This document shows, one piece after another, positions 2,492-14,152 of a stretch of 35,477 nt of DNA. The stretch lies in IMG/VR virus record IMGVR_UViG_3300025012_000212, positions 1 through 35,477 of that record; one strand, 5' to 3'. This stretch comes from a virus. The translations under genes and the position numbers were made by a program. Each line of letters opens with the position of its first letter. Within the stretch, counting starts at the first letter, position 1. The notes below the pieces were generated by a model. It was not told the origin of the DNA, did no database searches, and was given only the letters and a program-made list of their open reading frames with translations.

Positions 2492-2500
2492 TAATATTAG

Positions 2501-2566
2501 TGTGGATAGGCTTTGGTTTTAAACTAAAGTTGATAAGCTAAGAAATCTCCCGTCTTAGCTTCCACA
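2501..2566 (+). ncRNA. putative three-way-junction RNA element (copy A)
   Basis: This intergenic element starts 10 bases after the capsid stop. P1 is TGTGGA (2501-2506) paired with TCCACA (2561-2566). P2 spans 2509-2531, with stem CTTTGGTT/AACTAAAG plus two G-U pairs at its base. P3 is AAGCTAAGA (2535-2543) with TCTTAGCTT (2553-2561), nine perfect pairs; base 2561 is shared with P1. The joining bases are TA between P1 and P2, GAT between P2 and P3, and none between P3 and P1. Elements at 3771-3831 and 13292-13362 share this plan with different stems. It has no terminal U-tract, so a simple terminator is unlikely. It ends 56 bases before the next start codon. Confidence 0.5.
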
Positions 2567-2622
2567 TTTTATTAATATCGTAGGGGGTATAATTTTATAA
2601 TATAAATATGGAGGTATAAATT

Positions 2623-3108
2623 ATGGGTGGAAGACTTTTTCAGAATGTTCATGTTGTAAACGCCATGCCTAGTGCTAGTCAAGCAGCTTATGAGGATTTG
2701 TTTAATGGTAGTCCTAATACGGATATTGTTAATCTTGGCAAATACGAACAGTGTCTTTGGGTAATTCAAAAAGCGGCTGGTTCTACTGGTGTTGCACGTA
2801 TCAGTGTTGAAAGTTGTGATGATGTTACGCCTTCAACTGCGACAACTGTAGCATTTAATTATTGGACTTGTACTAGTGGTGATACTTGGTCTGATATGCA
2901 GACAGCTACTGCGTATGGGTTCACAACTACTGCTGGTAGCGACCAAATTTATGCGATTGAGATCGATAGTTCTAGACTTTCTGGTACTGATAAATATGCA
3001 AGGCTCGCCACTGATGAAACTACTGATGACCCAGTAGATGGGACAATTGTATGTATTCTTGGTGGTGGTAAGATTATCCAAGAAGTAAAACCAACAGCCA
3101 TTGTTTAA
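2623..3108 (+). CDS. putative capsid-associated/decoration protein
   Basis: This 161-residue protein has no signal peptide, is rich in Thr, Ser, Asp and beta-prone segments, and lies directly after the major capsid gene. That position and composition fit a head decoration or minor head protein, but I do not recognise a named family. The start ATG has GGAGG at 2610-2614, eight bases upstream, and an AT-rich leader with TATAAT-like words (2588-2604) precedes it. A strong hairpin follows the stop. Confidence 0.6.
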   Translation: MGGRLFQNVHVVNAMPSASQAAYEDLFNGSPNTDIVNLGKYEQCLWVIQKAAGSTGVARISVESCDDVTPSTATTVAFNYWTCTSGDTWSDMQTATAYGFTTTAGSDQIYAIEIDSSRLSGTDKYARLATDETTDDPVDGTIVCILGGGKIIQEVKPTAIV

Positions 3109-3121
3109 TTTATTGATTTAA

Positions 3122-3153
3122 ACAAAGCTTGAGATATTTCACTCAAGCTTTGT
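3122..3153 (+). terminator. strong intergenic hairpin, possible terminator
   Basis: ACAAAGCTTGAG (3122-3133) pairs perfectly with CTCAAGCTTTGT (3142-3153) around an eight-base loop. The following bases are CTTTAAA, a weak U-tract, so it may be a partial terminator or an mRNA-stabilising 3' end for the capsid and decoration transcripts. It lies between stop 3108 and start 3172. Confidence 0.6.
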
Positions 3154-3171
3154 CTTTAAAGCAGGGAGAAA

Positions 3172-3770: not shown

Positions 3771-3831
3771 TATATTGAGGGATAGGGAGCGCACCCGACA
3801 AGAGATTTAATCCACCTCTTCTCTCAATATA
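3771..3831 (+). ncRNA. putative three-way-junction RNA element (copy B)
   Basis: P1 is an 11-pair stem: 3771-3781 (TATATTGAGGG) with 3821-3831, including one G-U. P2 is GGG (3785-3787) with CCC (3794-3796). P3 is AAGAG (3800-3804) with CTCTT (3816-3820). The joining bases are ATA between P1 and P2, GAC between P2 and P3, none between P3 and P1: the same plan as copy A. It begins eight bases after stop 3762 and ends 25 bases before the endonuclease start codon. No U-tract follows. Confidence 0.5.
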
Positions 3832-3856
3832 TTATGGATTGTATAGGAGGAATACT

Positions 3857-4585
3857 ATGAGTAATAATGTAAAAGAATATGTTTTGGGATGCGTTTATGG
3901 AAGATGGGTTGTAATTTATGCTGATTTGCCATATAGTCAGAGGCAAGGTAGGCTAGTCGTTGTAAAATGTTTATGTGATAAAGAGACAATTAAATTAGTT
4001 AATTTACAAGTTTTGAGGAGTGGGAAATCACAATCTTGCGGCTGTCTTAAAATAGAGAAATTAGTAGAGAGATCCACAATTCATGGGATGGGTGGAAGAA
4101 AATCAAGGAATAAAATTTATTCACTTTGGAAACATATCAATAGTAGATGTTCAAATGTGAATAATGGATCGTATGACAGTTATGGTGGGCGTGGAATTTA
4201 TGTATGTAGTGAATGGGTGTTTGAATTCCCCGTGTTTAATGATTGGTGTTTAAATAATGGATGGGAAGAAGGTCTTCAATTAGATCGAATCGATAATGAT
4301 GGTCCTTATGCTCCTTGGAATTGTAGATTTATAACTATAAGAGAGAATGGATTTAATAAAAGATTATTACAGTCGAATAACACTTCTGGATATTGTGGGG
4401 TGTCTTATAAACCGGAGAGAAAATCTTTTTCTGCAATTGTAAGAAATGATGGGAAGACAGTATTTAACAAAACAACATTTAAAACTGCTAAAGATGCAGC
4501 ATTAGCAAGAGATAAATTTATTATAAGAGAAGGATTGCCTCATAAATTAAACTTCCCGGAACTAGCAATTAGCTGGTGTTTGTAA
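3857..4585 (+). CDS. HNH-type homing endonuclease with C-terminal AP2 DNA-binding domain
   Basis: This 242-residue protein has three visible parts. Residues ~10-65 form a cysteine-bearing module ending in the SCGC motif. A central nuclease region (about 85-160) has YGGRGIYVCSEW, LDRIDNDGPYAPWNCRF and EN..NKR, typical of phage free-standing HNH-family endonucleases. Residues ~175-235 read as an AP2 domain (SGYCGV, FNKTTFKTAKDAALARD). Such enzymes cut phage DNA at the homing site and spread their own gene. ATG 3857 is chosen over the in-frame TTG 3839 because AGGAGG (3845-3850) is correctly spaced only for the ATG. The gene overlaps the next start in TAATG and lies directly after element B, in a cluster of genes foreign to a head operon. 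Confidence 0.85.
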   Translation: MSNNVKEYVLGCVYGRWVVIYADLPYSQRQGRLVVVKCLCDKETIKLVNLQVLRSGKSQSCGCLKIEKLVERSTIHGMGGRKSRNKIYSLWKHINSRCSNVNNGSYDSYGGRGIYVCSEWVFEFPVFNDWCLNNGWEEGLQLDRIDNDGPYAPWNCRFITIRENGFNKRLLQSNNTSGYCGVSYKPERKSFSAIVRNDGKTVFNKTTFKTAKDAALARDKFIIREGLPHKLNFPELAISWCL

Positions 4586-5196
4586 TGGGTAATATTAACA
4601 TCGCCATTGGTCTTCCTTGCAACTGGGATTTTTTATCGACCAAATTTTTTGAATCATGGATAGAGTTGAAGAAACCCCAACATAGTGTAATAATTGGGAA
4701 TAGGGGAAGAGTAGACGATCAACGAAATTCAATAATTCATGCCGTTCTTAAAGATGGGACATTTAGCCATATATTGTTCCTTGATACAGATCATAGACAT
4801 CATTCCGATACCATCCTTAAATTATTGTCACATGATAAAGATATTGTATCTGGTTTATCTTTTAGGCGTTCTTATCCATATGACCCAATTATATTCGAAC
4901 AAGATGGTGATAAATTCAAGAATATAATACAATGGAATAAAAATGAATTAATTGAAGTAGATGCTATTGGAGCTGCTTCATTATTGGTTGATGTCAGTGT
5001 TTTTAAAGAAATTAATTATCCTTGGTTCGAAATGAATTATAGGTTTGGCGACGGTGTTGTAAGTGAAGATTTTGCATTTTGTTTAAAGGCTAAACAGGCT
5101 GGATATAAAATATATTGTGATACCGGTTGTGATAACAAACATTTAGGTACAATTGAAATAGATCAAACATATTGGGAGAGATTTAATCCAAGGTGA
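4585..5196 (+). CDS. GT-A-like glycosyltransferase, paralogue 1 of 3
   Basis: This 203-residue protein has a GT-A-like plan: an N-terminal IAIGLPC strand, a D67-T-D69 metal/nucleotide-sugar motif in FLDTDH, SG at 89-90, an E161-D162 pair before FCLKAKQAGYKIYCDT, and H186 in NKHLGT. Genes at 8350 and 12213 share the same block order, so these are paralogues. It would transfer a sugar in the cytoplasm, most likely to a virion protein given its place among structural genes; that target is inferred. The start ATG overlaps the endonuclease stop (TAATG), with GTG 4576 as an alternative; no good ribosome site is seen, so translation is probably coupled. Confidence 0.8.
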   Translation: MGNINIAIGLPCNWDFLSTKFFESWIELKKPQHSVIIGNRGRVDDQRNSIIHAVLKDGTFSHILFLDTDHRHHSDTILKLLSHDKDIVSGLSFRRSYPYDPIIFEQDGDKFKNIIQWNKNELIEVDAIGAASLLVDVSVFKEINYPWFEMNYRFGDGVVSEDFAFCLKAKQAGYKIYCDTGCDNKHLGTIEIDQTYWERFNPR

Positions 5197-8349: not shown

Positions 8350-8979
8350 ATGAAAGACGTAAAATTAGCTATAGGAGTGCCATTAACACACAATACAGTA
8401 CCAGTTGAATTTTTTGAATCGTTCATGGCTATGCGCAAGCCTGATAATCACGTATTTTTTAGAGCTGGTGGTTATCAAGGACTGGCATCAATGAGAAATC
8501 AATTAGTTGACGCCGCACAAAAATACAACTGTACGCACATACTTTTTCTTGATGTAGACCATCGACATAACCCAGATACAATAATTAAGTTACTTTCACA
8601 CAACTTACCTATTGTATCTGGGTTGTCTTTTATGAGGACTACACCATATTCAGTCTGTGCTTTTAATGGTATGATAAACAATTATAAAACGATAGATAAT
8701 GTCCCAGAGAATGAGTTAATTGAAGTAGATAGTGTTGGCGCAGCATGTTTATTAGTTAATATGGATGTTTTCAACAAAATTAAAAAGCCTTATTTTTCTT
8801 TTATGAAAAATCCAGATCCTAACATTCAATTCGATATTGGTGAAGACGTTTATTTTTGTAATTTAGTTAAACAAGCTGGCTATAAAATATTTATAGATAC
8901 GAGTTGTACAAATAAACATTTGGGGACAGTTGAAGTAGATAAAGAGTTTTCGGCAATTTGGAATAGGGGAGAAAAATGA
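8350..8979 (+). CDS. GT-A-like glycosyltransferase, paralogue 2 of 3
   Basis: This 209-residue protein has the same block order as the gene at 4585: LAIGVPL at the start, FFESFMAMRKP, SMRNQLVDAA, D68-V-D70 in FLDVDHRH, IVSGLSFMR, ENELIEVDSVGAACLLV, a GEDVYF acidic pair, KQAGYKIFIDTSC and NKHLGTVEVD. The close match to paralogue 1 suggests a gene duplication within the phage or its relatives. It is the first gene of the island, with GGGAGA as ribosome site, partly hidden in a hairpin. It overlaps the radical SAM gene (ATGA), so the two are co-translated. Confidence 0.82.
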   Translation: MKDVKLAIGVPLTHNTVPVEFFESFMAMRKPDNHVFFRAGGYQGLASMRNQLVDAAQKYNCTHILFLDVDHRHNPDTIIKLLSHNLPIVSGLSFMRTTPYSVCAFNGMINNYKTIDNVPENELIEVDSVGAACLLVNMDVFNKIKKPYFSFMKNPDPNIQFDIGEDVYFCNLVKQAGYKIFIDTSCTNKHLGTVEVDKEFSAIWNRGEK

Positions 8980-10037
8980 TTAAAGAGGAATATTCACCAT
9001 ACAAAATTATTCATAGCTTTGACAAATTAATTCAGTTTAAAGATGGAGAACAACCAAATCCATTGCAAGTCCAGATTATTCCGTCAAATAAGTGTAACAA
9101 TTCTTGTTTAACATGTGCGTATCGCTTGAAGGGGAATAAATCAAATGAAATATTTAATGATAAAGACTTACTTTCTTATGAAAAAATTGTTGAAACGTTA
9201 GATTCTTGTGTTGATATGGGGGTAAGAGCTATTCAAATAACCGGAGGAGGAGAGCCTCTTGTCCACCCAAAAATTAAAAATATATTCAGAGATATATTAG
9301 ATAGAAAACTAGAACTAGCTCTAGTTTCAAATGGCATGGCGTTAGATGATGAATTGTGTAAGATTTTAAGCGATTCAGCTTGGGTTAGAATATCAGTTGA
9401 TTGTGCTACACCAGAAACATATTCATCTTTTAGAAAAGTAAATAAAAAGATGTTTTTCAGGACTATTGAAAATATTAAAAATTTAGTTAAATACAAAAAA
9501 GATAGTGTTATAGGAGCAGGATTTGTTGTTAACAAATATAATTACAAAGAAATATTTGATGCAGCAAAATTATTTAAAGAAATTGGAGTAGATAATTTTA
9601 GAATATCTGCTGCTTTTACCCCAGATGGCTATTCTTATTTTGATGGCATATATGAAGATTCTTTTGAGTTGGCTAAAAAAGCTCAAGAACTATCTGATGA
9701 TAATTTTACTGTTTTTAATCTTTTTAATGATAGAATGAAAGACATGTTTGAGGGAGTTCAAGACTATAATTTTTGTCCTACAAAAGATTTACTTGCTTAT
9801 GTAGGGGCTGATTATAATGTCTATACTTGCTGTACACTTGCGTATAATAAAAAAGGGAAGATTGGTTCTATAAAAAATCAATCGTTCAAAGATTTGTGGA
9901 TGAGTGATGACAAGATCAATATGTTTAAATCTCATAATCCTGATCTGAGATGTAAAAATCCTTGTCTTTATAAAGCTAAAAATGAATTCATAAATTATTG
10001 TATCAAAGATAAACCAAAACATATTAATTTTATTTAA
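8976..10037 (+). CDS. radical SAM enzyme with SPASM-like C-terminus
   Basis: This 353-residue protein binds a 4Fe-4S cluster through C40-x3-C44-x2-C47 (CNNSCLTC) and S-adenosylmethionine through GGGEP (residues 90-94). The TIM-barrel core continues through VSNGM, WVRISVDC and the middle strands. The C-terminal ~90 residues hold further cysteines (FCPTKD, YTCCTL, LRCKNPC, NYC) in a SPASM-like arrangement for auxiliary clusters. SPASM proteins often modify peptides or carbohydrates by radical chemistry. Its neighbours are glycosyltransferases and a methyltransferase, so modification of a sugar or of a virion peptide is plausible; the substrate is unknown. Radical SAM enzymes need anoxic or low-oxygen cytoplasm to work well. 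Confidence 0.9.
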   Translation: MIKEEYSPYKIIHSFDKLIQFKDGEQPNPLQVQIIPSNKCNNSCLTCAYRLKGNKSNEIFNDKDLLSYEKIVETLDSCVDMGVRAIQITGGGEPLVHPKIKNIFRDILDRKLELALVSNGMALDDELCKILSDSAWVRISVDCATPETYSSFRKVNKKMFFRTIENIKNLVKYKKDSVIGAGFVVNKYNYKEIFDAAKLFKEIGVDNFRISAAFTPDGYSYFDGIYEDSFELAKKAQELSDDNFTVFNLFNDRMKDMFEGVQDYNFCPTKDLLAYVGADYNVYTCCTLAYNKKGKIGSIKNQSFKDLWMSDDKINMFKSHNPDLRCKNPCLYKAKNEFINYCIKDKPKHINFI

Positions 10038-10045
10038 GGCTTACT

Positions 10046-10594
10046 ATGAATTGGCTAGGTGATTTAGTTCAAAAAGAAATAACTGGAAACGATTCTGTTT
10101 CAAGCCTTGGATGCGGGGTATTGCAAGAGGTTATGGGGTTAAGGTGTAAATCTTTTGTTGGATTTGATATATATGAGCCTTATATAAATAAAATTAAGTT
10201 GCTGGGCGTAAATGCTATTTGTGCCGATATAACAAAATATGAATTTGGAATAAACACAATTGATGTTGTAATTGCCTTAGATATATTAGAGCATCTTGAT
10301 TTTAAAGAAGCTTATAATCTTATAAAAAAGATGAAAAGAATGGCTAGAAAAAAGGTTATTATTTATACACCATCTCATTTCTTTGACAATATTAACATCA
10401 ATTGGTTGGGTCAGAAAAATAATATATTTGAATGGATGGAGAACTCTCCAGATTCAGATTGGAAAGGCACTGGAATAAACAAATATCAAGAGCACAAATG
10501 TTTTATACCAGATAGAGTATTTAAAAAATTTGGGTTTAAAACATCTACAGATAATATTGACAAAAATACGTATGCGATTTGGGAGAATAAATGA
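10046..10594 (+). CDS. class I SAM-dependent methyltransferase
   Basis: This 182-residue protein has motif I as SLGCG (residues 20-24), an acidic D41 after GF, D61 in ADI and the post-motif ALDILEHLD (77-85), the layout of small Rossmann-fold methyltransferases. The N-terminal half is compact and the C-terminal half (IYTPSHFF, HKCFIPDRVFKKFGF) resembles methyltransferases acting on sugars or small molecules. It lies between the radical SAM and a glycosyltransferase gene with a four-base overlap to the latter, so it probably works on the same product. Confidence 0.85.
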   Translation: MNWLGDLVQKEITGNDSVSSLGCGVLQEVMGLRCKSFVGFDIYEPYINKIKLLGVNAICADITKYEFGINTIDVVIALDILEHLDFKEAYNLIKKMKRMARKKVIIYTPSHFFDNININWLGQKNNIFEWMENSPDSDWKGTGINKYQEHKCFIPDRVFKKFGFKTSTDNIDKNTYAIWENK

Positions 10595-11415
10595 TACCTA
10601 AGAAAATTCATCTATATTGGGGTAAAAATAAACCATTGTCTTATATGAAATATTTGACAGTTGTTTCTTTTTCTAAATTAAACCCGGATTGGCAAATTTT
10701 TGTTTACTATCCTAAAAATATTAATAAAGAAATTAAATGGGATGGGTTTGAACAAAAAAAATATTGCCCTGTAGGGAAGGACTATTTTGATGATTTGGCT
10801 AATATAAAAAATGTGTCTTTGGTTGAAACTGATTTTAAATTAGCCAAAGAAATATCTGAAGTTCATAAGTCGGATTTATTAAGATTGAGTTTGCTTTCAT
10901 CTGTTGGGGGCTTGTGGTCAGACTTTGATATTTTTTATACTTCTTCTGTAGATAAAATTTTTAATAAATTTGAAAATAAAGATACTCTAATTTGTTATCA
11001 CTATAATTGTCATAATATTGGATTTTTGGCAAGTGCTGGGGATAATAAATTTTTTAAACAATTGTTTGATATGTGTGTAAACTCTATAAATAAAATAGAT
11101 AATTTGCAATATCAAACAATTGGGAGAGATTTATTTACTTCTTTTTTTAAATATAACAAAAAAAATACTGAAGATTTTTCAGAAAAACATGAATGTAAAA
11201 TTGATAATATTCCATTTACAACTGTCTATCCATTTGACTGGAGACAAATTGAATTAATTTTTGGCAAGCACTCTAATTTATTTGAGAATACGGTTGGTAT
11301 TCATTGGTTTGCTGGTGCTGAAAAAACTAGTGAATACGAAAATATTGTAACACAAGAAAATATTGAAACCTTTGACAATTTTCTTCTAAAATTAATGGCT
11401 GGTATTAATGAGTAA
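10591..11415 (+). CDS. glycosyltransferase of the DXD sugar-binding (GT32-like) type
   Basis: This 274-residue protein opens with IPKKIHLYWG, then NPDWQIFVYYP, HKSDLLRLSLLSSVGGLWSDFDIFY (residues 92-116) with the D111-x-D113 motif, and a late GIHWFAGAE. These are the signatures of the GT32-like family (capsular polysaccharide, initiation-like sugar transferases). It is unrelated in sequence to the three paralogous transferases around it. GGGAG five bases before the ATG sets the start. It overlaps the next gene by eight bases. Confidence 0.85.
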   Translation: MIPKKIHLYWGKNKPLSYMKYLTVVSFSKLNPDWQIFVYYPKNINKEIKWDGFEQKKYCPVGKDYFDDLANIKNVSLVETDFKLAKEISEVHKSDLLRLSLLSSVGGLWSDFDIFYTSSVDKIFNKFENKDTLICYHYNCHNIGFLASAGDNKFFKQLFDMCVNSINKIDNLQYQTIGRDLFTSFFKYNKKNTEDFSEKHECKIDNIPFTTVYPFDWRQIELIFGKHSNLFENTVGIHWFAGAEKTSEYENIVTQENIETFDNFLLKLMAGINE

Positions 11416-12199
11416 AAAATATTCAATAGTATTCCCGTATATAAAAAGGGCTGGATGGCTGCATAATACATTGTTGTCTTACTATCATCATTATAAAAAT
11501 AGAGATGATTATGAAGTAATAATTGTTGAAGATGTTAAAAACAGAGAGGATGGTAAAGAACACCATAAATTAAAAGAAATATTAAAGTTTTTTACTAAAA
11601 ATGCCGATAAGTATATTGATATCAAGTTGGTAGAATCTAATTTTATCAATAATCATAACCCCGCTCCATTATTTAATTTAGGTGTTTCTAAAGCGAGCGG
11701 TGAATATATTTGCATAACAAATCCAGAAGTTTTTCATAAAGAAAATATTCTGGCCGGGTTTGACAAGATCTTTGACAATCAACCAAATTCTTATATAGTA
11801 TGCGGTTGTGAGAATATCCACAAATTTAAATTATTCTCTGATTCCTTTGATAGTTTTAAATACGAACATCATTCTTGGTATCAACATACAAAATTTAGGA
11901 ATGCGAGATATCATTTTTGTAGTTGTTTATCAAAAGAAAATTATTTAAAGATGGGTGGATTTGATGAAAGATTTAGTAAGGGCTATGCTTATGATGATGA
12001 TGCCTTTAGGGACGATGTAGAAAAAAGTGGGATAGGATTTATCTTAAGAGATGATCTACTGACTTTACATCAAGCACATGAATCAACAGTTAAAAGCTTA
12101 AATGTTGATAAACTATTAAAAAGAAATAAGTGTCTTTATCTTTTGAAGAAACAAAATAAAACAGATAAAGAAATTGAAGAGTTTTTGAATAACCTATAA
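11408..12199 (+). CDS. family 2-like glycosyltransferase
   Basis: This 263-residue protein has a GT-A fold plan: SIVFPYIKRAG, YEVIIVEDV (E41-D42 acidic pair), NPAPLFNLGVSKASGEYICITNPEVFH (replacing the usual DxD by NPE), then KMGGFDERFSKGYAYDDDAFRDDV, typical of the galactosyltransferase-type C-terminal helix pair, and LHQAH. The missing canonical DxD is as seen in several GT2 relatives. Together with the preceding transferase it could extend a short glycan started elsewhere in the island. Confidence 0.85.
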   Translation: MSKKYSIVFPYIKRAGWLHNTLLSYYHHYKNRDDYEVIIVEDVKNREDGKEHHKLKEILKFFTKNADKYIDIKLVESNFINNHNPAPLFNLGVSKASGEYICITNPEVFHKENILAGFDKIFDNQPNSYIVCGCENIHKFKLFSDSFDSFKYEHHSWYQHTKFRNARYHFCSCLSKENYLKMGGFDERFSKGYAYDDDAFRDDVEKSGIGFILRDDLLTLHQAHESTVKSLNVDKLLKRNKCLYLLKKQNKTDKEIEEFLNNL

Positions 12200-12212
12200 T
12201 TCGGGAGAAATT

Positions 12213-12869
12213 ATGGAAAAAATTAAACTTGCTATAGGAATTCCATTAGTAGACCCAACGGTCCCAGCAGCGTTTCTTGATAGTTTTGTAATGATGCGAA
12301 AGCCGAGTTTTTTATATCTAAGGCCTCAATATAGTGGAATGAATATTGCTGATGTTAGAAATCAGCTAGTTGAAAGAGCTTTAGAAAATGGTTGTACTCA
12401 TTTATTGATGATGGACAGTGATCAGGTATTCCCTGTAGATACGATTGAAAAACTTTTATCTCATAATAAAGATGTAACTTCTTCTATAGTTCATCGTAGG
12501 TATCCGGGATTTGATTGTATTTTATATCGCGGGATTCCAAGTATGTATGTCCATGTTTCAGATGAGGATATTTTAGATTCGAGAGAAAGAAAAGAGTTGC
12601 TCGAAATTGATGCTACTGGATGTGGTTGCGTATTGTATAATACTGAGGTCTTTTTGAAGATAGACCCTCCTTGGTTTGAATTTGGTAGAGATGAAAAAGG
12701 AAGTCTTGTTGGAGAAGATATTGGTTTTTGTTATAAATTGAAACAGAATGGGTATCGTATTTTTTGTGATACGACTATAGATATAGGGCATTTGTCAACT
12801 TTAGAAATAAATTGGTCAACATATGCTTTATATAAACATGTGAAGAAATTGCAAAATATGGAGGGTTAA
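12213..12869 (+). CDS. GT-A-like glycosyltransferase, paralogue 3 of 3
   Basis: This 218-residue protein shares the block order of the genes at 4585 and 8350: LAIGIPL, FLDSFVMMRKP, DVRNQLVERA, D68-S-D70 in MMDSDQ, ELLEIDATGCGCVLY, GEDIGFCYKLKQNGYRIFCDT, IGHLSTLEI. It is the most divergent of the three, with MDSDQ in place of LD.DH, resembling Anp1-like transferases. GGGAGA before the ATG is the ribosome site. The 3' end carries the GGAGGG ribosome site of the tail tube gene. Confidence 0.82.
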   Translation: MEKIKLAIGIPLVDPTVPAAFLDSFVMMRKPSFLYLRPQYSGMNIADVRNQLVERALENGCTHLLMMDSDQVFPVDTIEKLLSHNKDVTSSIVHRRYPGFDCILYRGIPSMYVHVSDEDILDSRERKELLEIDATGCGCVLYNTEVFLKIDPPWFEFGRDEKGSLVGEDIGFCYKLKQNGYRIFCDTTIDIGHLSTLEINWSTYALYKHVKKLQNMEG

Positions 12870-12872
12870 AAT

Positions 12873-13289
12873 ATGGCGACATCTTATAGAGGTGCTGATG
12901 GTAAAGTAACTTTAGGATCAAATAGTATTTCTTTAATGGGAACGTGGTCAATGTCAGGCGTCACCACAGATCTGTTGGAAACTTCAGCATTTGGAGATGA
13001 ATGGAAACAATTTCGTCCGGGTTTACGTGATGGTGGGACTATTAGTTTTAACGGATTGTTTGACGGTACTGATGCTAACGGTCAGACCTCATTACGAAAT
13101 TACAATGCTAGTAACACGAGTGTAAGTGATATCCGTTTCTATATAGACGATAACAGTTATTATACTCCATCAACTACTAACCCGTTATCCTATGTCTGGA
13201 TTACGGAATGGAACGTAGATGCTGATAAATCACAGTTAGTTACTGCTTCATTTTCTTGCAAAGTTTCTGGTTTTATGACGTTGGTATAA
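12873..13289 (+). CDS. major tail tube protein
   Basis: This 138-residue protein has the beta-sandwich tail-tube pattern: GKVTLGSNSISLMGTWSM, TDLLETSAFGDEWKQF, GLRDGGTISFNGLFD, LSYVWITEWNVDAD and a final ASFSCKVSGFMTL strand. Position before the assembly chaperone and tape measure supports it. GGAGGG eight bases before the ATG is a strong ribosome site, consistent with high expression. Element C follows directly after the stop. Confidence 0.88.
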   Translation: MATSYRGADGKVTLGSNSISLMGTWSMSGVTTDLLETSAFGDEWKQFRPGLRDGGTISFNGLFDGTDANGQTSLRNYNASNTSVSDIRFYIDDNSYYTPSTTNPLSYVWITEWNVDADKSQLVTASFSCKVSGFMTLV

Positions 13290-13291
13290 TT

Positions 13292-13362
13292 TGATTGTAA
13301 TGGGCTAGGTTGGCCAACCGAAAGCAAGTATTCTGAACTTGTTGCCTATTATTTTATAATCA
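13292..13362 (+). ncRNA. putative three-way-junction RNA element (copy C)
   Basis: Outer P1 is TGATTGTAA (13292-13300) with TTATAATCA (13354-13362), one G-U, continued after an internal loop by TGGGC (13301-13305) with GCCTA (13344-13348). P2 is GGTTGGCCAACC (13308-13319). P3 is AGCAAGT (13323-13329) with ACTTGTT (13337-13343). The joining bases are TA, GAA and none, matching copies A and B. It starts three bases after the tail tube stop and ends 23 bases before the next start. No U-tract follows. Confidence 0.5.
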
Positions 13363-13385
13363 GTGATATTACAGAGATATTAAAA

Positions 13386-14152
13386 ATGGGTGATATTAGA
13401 TTTTGCTTGTGTGGTTGTGGTGAAATTGTAACAAATAAAAGGCATAAGTTTATAAAAGGACATTTGGATAATTTAAAAAATAAAATGTCTCCATTATATT
13501 CTTGTGGTTGTGGAGAACATGTTTCCTTTGATAGATGGAAATTAGTTTGGAATAAATATATCTCTGGGCACTATAATAAAAATAGGCCAGAGATCCATAA
13601 TAAAAAGATAAGTGTTGCTTTGAAAATTAGTCTTGTAGGTGAAGGAAATCCCTTTTATGGGAAACATCATACCGAAGAGACAAAAATAAAATTAGCAATT
13701 CTTTATTAGGTAAGACTCATACAGAAGAAAGTAAAAAGAAAATAAGTGATTCTCATTTAGGTAAAAAATTTACTGAAGAACATAAATTAAAAATAAGTAA
13801 ATTAGTGAAGCAAAAGAATGGAGATAAAAATCCTAATTGGAAAGGTGGAATTACTAGTTTAGTAAAAAGAATAAGAAAGCTCGATAAATATAAAGAATGG
13901 AGAAATCTTGTTTTTATCAGAGATGATTTTACATGTGAAAAGTGTCTTATTAGAGGTAACGGTGATCTAAACGCTCATCATATTAAAGAATTTGCTAAGA
14001 TAATAAAAGAAAACGAGATTAAGACAATAGAAGAAGCTGAAAATTGTGGTGAACTTTGGAATGTTGGCAATGGGCAAACATTCTGTAAGAAGTGCCATAA
14101 AGAGAAACATAAAAAGGGAGAGAAAAATTTATGTGGGATTTGGAATGTTTGA
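13386..14152 (+). pseudogene. HNH homing endonuclease with NUMOD3 repeats, frameshifted
   Basis: Two reading frames together encode one protein. The first (13386-13709) has CxCGC zinc-like motifs (FCLCGCGE, YSCGCGEH) and a NUMOD3 motif (NPFYGKHHTEET). The second, open from about 13694 to 14152, resumes with SNSLLGKTHTEESKKKIS, a further NUMOD3 repeat (HLGKKFTEEH), NPNWKGG, and an HNH domain (CEKC, AHHIKEF, N-rich GNGQTF, CKKCHKEKH). The frames join if one A is restored in the A/T run at 13689-13694, so a one-base deletion broke it, or an assembly error did. No slippery heptamer is present there. The 3' end overlaps the tail chaperone start by 22 bases. It separates tail tube from chaperone, which are normally adjacent, so it is an insertion. 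Confidence 0.85.

Follow-up and report, generated by a model that had tools for sequence, protein, structure and literature searches.

A three-way-junction RNA of phage late operons as a candidate bistable leader of the gene behind it

Why does one phage late operon carry three intergenic RNAs of the same plan, and to which of the neighboring genes does each of them belong? The window, i.e., the whole stretch of DNA analyzed, was the 35,477-base virus record IMGVR_UViG_3300025012_000212, a tailed-phage late operon with an HK97-type capsid gene at 1211-2491 and a major tail protein gene at 12873-13289. An earlier note on this DNA had described the three RNAs and offered protection of mRNA 3' ends, a block to nucleases or tuning of the next gene as possible functions. 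Our analysis favors the last of these. The element is best read as a cis-acting 5' leader, in which alternative pseudoknots control how the gene behind it, often a mobile one, is translated. We give this reading a probability of roughly 0.7. It is based on computation, which established the fold, its covariation, the double complementarity of one loop, the position of one complementary strand at the ribosome-binding site (RBS) and the link to inserted endonuclease genes.

Three homologous RNAs and their relatives in other phages

Folding of the intergenic spaces of the window identified three with the plan P1-(A/C)TA-P2-GAN-P3, where P2 starts with GG and zero bases separate P3 from P1 (Table 1). 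All three copies of the earlier note, termed A, B and C, were found with this plan, and their placement shortly 3' of one gene and ahead of the next start was also confirmed. Their 5' ends lie 7-8 nt past a stop codon and their 3' ends 25-54 nt ahead of the next ATG, with copy A showing a larger distance to the ATG than usual.

Table 1. Features of the three RNA copies and of the genes behind copies B and C in the window (L3, loop of P3).
Feature	Position	Strand	Details
Copy A three-way junction	2499-2568	+	P1 2499-2505/2562-2568, ATA, P2 2509-2531, GAT, P3 2535-2543/2553-2561
Copy A L3, AATCTCCCG	2544-2552	+	complementary to proximal GGGGG and to GGAGGT
Copy A proximal pseudoknot strand GGGGG	2583-2587	+	pairs with CUCCC of L3, one GU; family-wide swap test
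Copy A GGAGGT, Shine-Dalgarno of ORF 2623-3108	2610-2615	+	can pair with AUCUCC of L3, one GU
Copy B three-way junction	3771-3831	+	P1 3771-3781/3821-3831, P2 3785-3796, GAC, P3 3800-3804/3816-3820, L3 3805-3815
Copy B proximal pseudoknot strand TGGATT	3835-3840	+	pairs with AAUCCA (3809-3814) of L3
Gene behind copy B, homing-endonuclease-like	3857-4585	+	weak AP2 domain; member of the largest, HNH-type cluster of downstream proteins
Copy C three-way junction	13298-13351	+	P1 13298-13305/13344-13351, P2 13308-13319, GAA, P3 13323-13328/13338-13343, L3 13329-13337
Copy C proximal pseudoknot strand TCAG	13360-13363	+	pairs with CUGA of L3; position of the family's proximal strand
Copy C CAGAG, ribosome-binding region of ORF 13386	13372-13376	+	pairs with UUCUG of L3, one GU; position of the family's RBS peak
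Gene behind copy C, NUMOD3/HNH homing endonuclease	13386-14152	+	Pfam NUMOD3 2.7e-8, HNH 3.2e-5

The three copies are homologous three-way-junction RNAs. Eight A-type copies, among them copy A, served to build a covariance model (R1), from which copies B and C were left out; 98.6% of its cells were paired and 11 of the 18 pairs showed double-sided changes among the eight seeds. In the window this model scored copy A, a training member, at 63.7 bits and recovered both non-members, copy B with 30.1 bits (E 1.9e-6) and copy C with 20.4 bits (E 0.0012), while the rest of the window gave at most 10.1 bits. Related records also yielded second and third copies with R1. The RNA was also found 3' of homologous capsid genes in the related loci L004 and L006, with the fold kept by compensatory changes; L020 showed compensatory changes as well.

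A pattern scan detected the same fold in unrelated phages, and wider scans of viral contigs combined with a parser yielded at least 240 distinct copies among the matches listed. The search patterns fixed the core letters GGATAGG, CYGAYAAG and YTTCC and left the other stem letters, the loops and the downstream strands free; conservation of the core is therefore not independent evidence. The earlier note had called for a test of covariation in homologues, which the RNA passed. An alignment of 104 copies, with 97.7% of cells paired, showed 594 double-sided changes versus 190 in shuffles, and a covariation score of 0.773 versus 0.18 after shuffling and no more than 0.129 when the pairings were slid. 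Mismatches in P1 comprised 110 GU versus 50 AC, which we counted as evidence for an element acting at the RNA level. The model derived from this alignment (R2) contained copies A (38.1 bits) and B (43.3 bits) as training members and scored copy C, a non-member, at 39.5 bits (E 3.7e-8). Over 22 loci picked by capsid relatedness (144 kb) it gave three matches, all in two loci with an endonuclease cassette, indicating a low background.

Outside the viral contigs, scanning 199 bacterial species genomes from one phylum gave a single match. The pattern scan of genome contigs gave 7 matches, with L080 alone being clear. Pattern matches in L022, L028, L030, L039 and L040 were dropped, as they lay within coding sequence or came without the fold. 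The loop constant TCTCCCG was rejected as a class feature, being confined to the relatives of copy A. Among named phages no close relative of the window capsid was found, the best showing about 30-36% identity. Plain strong hairpins were also seen behind head genes (window 3109-3171, L009 753-800, L006 7712-7760), some of them at places where relatives carry the three-way junction.

Relation to int-alpA and other structured RNAs

In a narrow scan copy C matched int-alpA (RF02996) with 40.6 bits (E 1.2e-7) and thereby passed the Rfam gathering cut-off of 35.8. The copies in L157 (39.4), L205 (36.3) and L042 (36.0) also exceeded this value and other copies straddle it, while copies A and B gave no RF02996 match in narrow scans even at E<=10. 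A fast-filter Rfam scan of the whole window found nothing and thus missed the int-alpA match at 13298-13365, although it lies above the cut-off; automatic annotations therefore probably undercount this RNA.

The orphan motif int-alpA, typed as sRNA in Rfam, has the same three-way-junction plan, P1-(C)TAG-P2-CGAAA-P3. Two Escherichia coli int-alpA loci, situated between an integrase and the following gene, contain a triplet of loop, proximal strand and RBS like the one described below: GCCUUA/UAAGGC with AAGG in the RBS, and ACCUUA/UAAGGU with AAGGU (loci L419 and L420). R2 reached L420 at 22.3 bits (E 0.001), but not L419. In contrast to the integrase-alpA position, the window copies lie behind a capsid gene, a small head-region gene and a tail-tube gene, and the RNAs of the present set generally follow phage structural genes and carry many different loops. 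We assign int-alpA and the phage copies to a single class. In the one paper naming int-alpA among those searched, it is listed without a function. The RBS pairing and the endonuclease link were found here, though the original authors of int-alpA may have proposed parts of them. The earlier note had also guessed at a connection with Mu-gpT-DE (RF03012, gathering cut-off 49 bits). This family gave no match in any Rfam scan and resembles the present RNA only in being named for a position 3' of a phage head gene. The family link supported here is the one to int-alpA.

The fold itself recalls another group of RNAs. Flaviviral class 1 exonuclease-resistant RNAs (xrRNAs) are three-way junctions whose P3 loop pairs downstream of P1. 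The present RNA has the same topology; to our knowledge it has no sequence relation to them. It could accordingly be a putative exonuclease roadblock, with junction and pseudoknot forming a ring that stabilizes the end of the capsid or tail mRNA or a processed downstream mRNA. The start of the RNA soon past the stop codon (median 13 nt ahead of P1 for the 159 of 189 copies in which the upstream stop was located) agrees with this, as does L009, where a capsid gene of 79% identity is followed by a plain strong hairpin at the same place. However, a roadblock gives no reason for a second strand complementary to the loop exactly at the RBS, a feature not known from the flaviviral RNAs, and the RNA comes and goes with the downstream endonuclease gene while the capsid gene stays. 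We consider the roadblock unlikely. The 3'-end protection and nuclease block of the earlier note share its position: the topology fits, the strand near the start codon is left unexplained.

Complementarity of the P3 loop to two downstream strands

Two downstream strands are complementary to the P3 loop, L3. The first lies 5-10 nt beyond P1 and about 24 nt upstream of the next ATG (pseudoknot PK1); the second is the RBS of the next gene, about 10 nt upstream of the ATG (PK2). The next ATG was found at a median of 34 nt past P1. Since the loop pairs with these strands, each element reaches about 10-45 nt past the ends given in the earlier note. Loop and strand co-vary among the copies, as in UCCCG/CGGGA, AAUCCA/UGGAUU (copy B), UAAUCCAU/AUGGAUUA, UCAUUCA/UGAAUGA, UCCUU/AAGGA and AAGCCUAUC/GAUAGGCUU. 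Evidence for the pseudoknots was drawn from complementarity with swapped-loop controls rather than from a pseudoknot-aware covariation model.

Using 25 swapped loops as controls, 43% of the copies exceeded all of them for PK1 (3.8% expected) and 20% did so for a second strand beyond PK1. Aligned at the ATG, complementarity to L3 in 146 copies peaked with 45% at -28 to -20 and 50% at -13 to -7, compared to about 5% for swapped loops. With a threshold of at least 5 Watson-Crick pairs (140 copies), PK1 was found in 71% versus 8% after swapping, pairing with the RBS in 74% versus 13%, and both in 56%. The RBS values speak for the tuning of the next gene suggested in the earlier note. The 31 copies without a Shine-Dalgarno-like RBS showed complementarity of L3 to the RBS in 77% versus 9% for swaps; the pairing is thus not a by-product of GGAGG. 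Mean predicted duplex energies of -7.8 kcal/mol for PK1 and -8.4 kcal/mol for the RBS are nearly equal and suggest bistability.

The loops of the window copies differ, so that each copy addresses its own strands: CUCCC/GGGGG and AUCUCC/GGAGGU in copy A, CUGA/UCAG and UUCUG/CAGAG in copy C, and the proximal pair named above in copy B, where the second pairing is weak. The Shine-Dalgarno sequence AGGAGG of copy B (3845-3850) matches its loop only weakly (UCC/GGA), and the homologues of copy B in L070 and L075 form 7-8 bp at the proximal pseudoknot. A strong PK1 combined with hardly any pairing to its own Shine-Dalgarno sequence was counted against the leader reading.

A loop with two pairings that exclude each other, the RBS being covered by one of them, is the usual expression platform of a translational riboswitch, and such alternative pairings were found here by complementarity and swap controls. 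A junction that binds a metabolite or ion and thereby selects PK1 or PK2 would also agree with the recurrence of the core GGAUAGG/GAYAAG in unrelated phages. However, the search patterns had themselves dictated part of the core letters, the downstream genes have no metabolic theme in common, and changes in the core are tolerated in int-alpA and copy C (CTAG, GAA). Ligand sensing is in our judgment rather improbable. A transcription terminator or attenuator is far less probable still: runs of at least 4 T past P1 are somewhat enriched (17% versus 4%), but 83% of the copies lack such a run and with it the mark of an intrinsic terminator, and the genes behind the RNA are co-oriented and have their own RBS.

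Neighboring genes and a proposed translational switch

Upstream genes were diverse and mostly structural (head, tail, portal), and among the downstream genes homing endonucleases of the HNH, NUMOD3, GIY-YIG and endonuclease VII types predominated. The two largest clusters of downstream proteins, with 53 and 20 of 177 members, are endonucleases. In a random sample of 20 downstream genes, 8 were of the homing/HNH/GIY-YIG/endonuclease VII kind, the one in L125 being judged by its repeats. About 60% of the sampled downstream genes were no recognized endonucleases, which was counted against the leader reading, as was the 161-aa protein behind copy A in the window and L006.

Presence and absence of the RNA were compared between loci. 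At site B, RNA and HNH gene are present in the window and in L041/L043 and both are missing in L006. At site C, RNA and endonuclease gene are both missing in L048. In the L303 capsid family of 22 loci the RNA occurred only in L422 and L202, the two in which the capsid gene is followed by an endonuclease gene; the other loci had their usual next genes or genes matching no endonuclease of the set. Several loci of this family are near-identical to each other, and the next gene was read in all but two. In L004, L020 and L041 the gene behind the RNA of site A is of HNH type; in the window and L006 it is the gene for the 161-aa phage protein. Direct adjacency to a homing endonuclease with joint presence or absence was found for B, C and the L303 family, but neither for A nor for about 60% of the sampled copies. 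Copy A may be a leader that outlasted its endonuclease gene, or one that was recruited.

The strong association with homing endonucleases, and the fact that the PK1 and RBS strands are direct repeats, might also point to a homing site or another DNA-level element such as an endonuclease target or recombination site. Such an element should, however, exist in the endonuclease-free alleles, from which the RNA is missing. The repeats keep a fixed position relative to the start codon, GU outnumbers AC among the mismatches, and copies before other genes behave in the same way. We regard this explanation as highly improbable.

Several further features of these loci were noted. The endonuclease gene behind copy C is split over two frames (ORFs 13386-13709 and 13805-14152) and looks broken. 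Three paralogues of about 210 aa, scattered over the late operon of the window (4576-5196, 8350-8979, 12213-12869), all match one same gene in L041 and L048. The neck-to-tail-tube block at 8350-12869 contains non-structural-looking genes, judged by eye to be possible radical-SAM, methyltransferase and glycosyltransferase-like proteins. A tRNA gene lies between two head-region genes in L020 (5904-5975, minus strand), and the same gene is found in L041. Other mobile RNA elements, namely a RAGATH-18 RNA and a group I intron, were found in loci that carry the RNA (L092 2344-2415 and L248 3447-3681).

For the leader reading, we propose that the element belongs to the gene behind it rather than forming the tail of the gene before. 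The conserved three-way junction would present L3, which could pair either with the PK1 strand, a decoy that would mimic the ribosome-binding sequence, or with the RBS itself. PK1 and PK2 would be mutually exclusive and of about equal strength, making the RNA bistable: in PK1 the start site would be free, in PK2 hidden, so that PK2 presumably represses and PK1 permits translation. The RNA may in this way limit or time translation of a gene situated behind a very highly expressed one (capsid, tail tube, portal). Folding order during transcription, terminating ribosomes, or a protein or ligand at the conserved junction are candidates for shifting the balance. Given the often short distance from stop codon to P1, a terminating ribosome could halt just before the RNA, and control may thus be insulated from upstream translation. 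Homing-endonuclease cassettes would carry the RNA in as their own translation control, with some copies serving other genes.

Structured leaders of this kind have a precedent in the T4-type homing endonuclease genes I-TevI, segB and Aeh1 mobE, which possess RBS-sequestering hairpins in polycistronic phage mRNA (PMC2988022). By analogy, negative control would be the likelier sign. The T4-type hairpins are gene-specific, whereas the present RNA is one conserved junction with two putative alternative pseudoknots, reused before many genes.

With somewhat less confidence, yet still leaning in its favor, we envisage int-alpA as the catalogued fragment of a class of bistable RNA switches extending across phages. 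In each copy the loop of the conserved junction would pick decoy or RBS by a private loop code, and the RNA would be a portable translation-control module, spread with homing-endonuclease and other accessory-gene cassettes and possibly driven by a ligand or by ribosome traffic.

The analysis offers a testable function for the orphan Rfam RNA int-alpA and extends its range beyond integrase regions into many late operons of phages. With three loop codes in one operon, these RNAs make up a compact, naturally diversified and possibly orthogonal set of translational switches, of use for RNA engineering and for the annotation of phage operons. They also suggest how selfish genes inserted downstream of the phage genes with the highest expression control their own translation.
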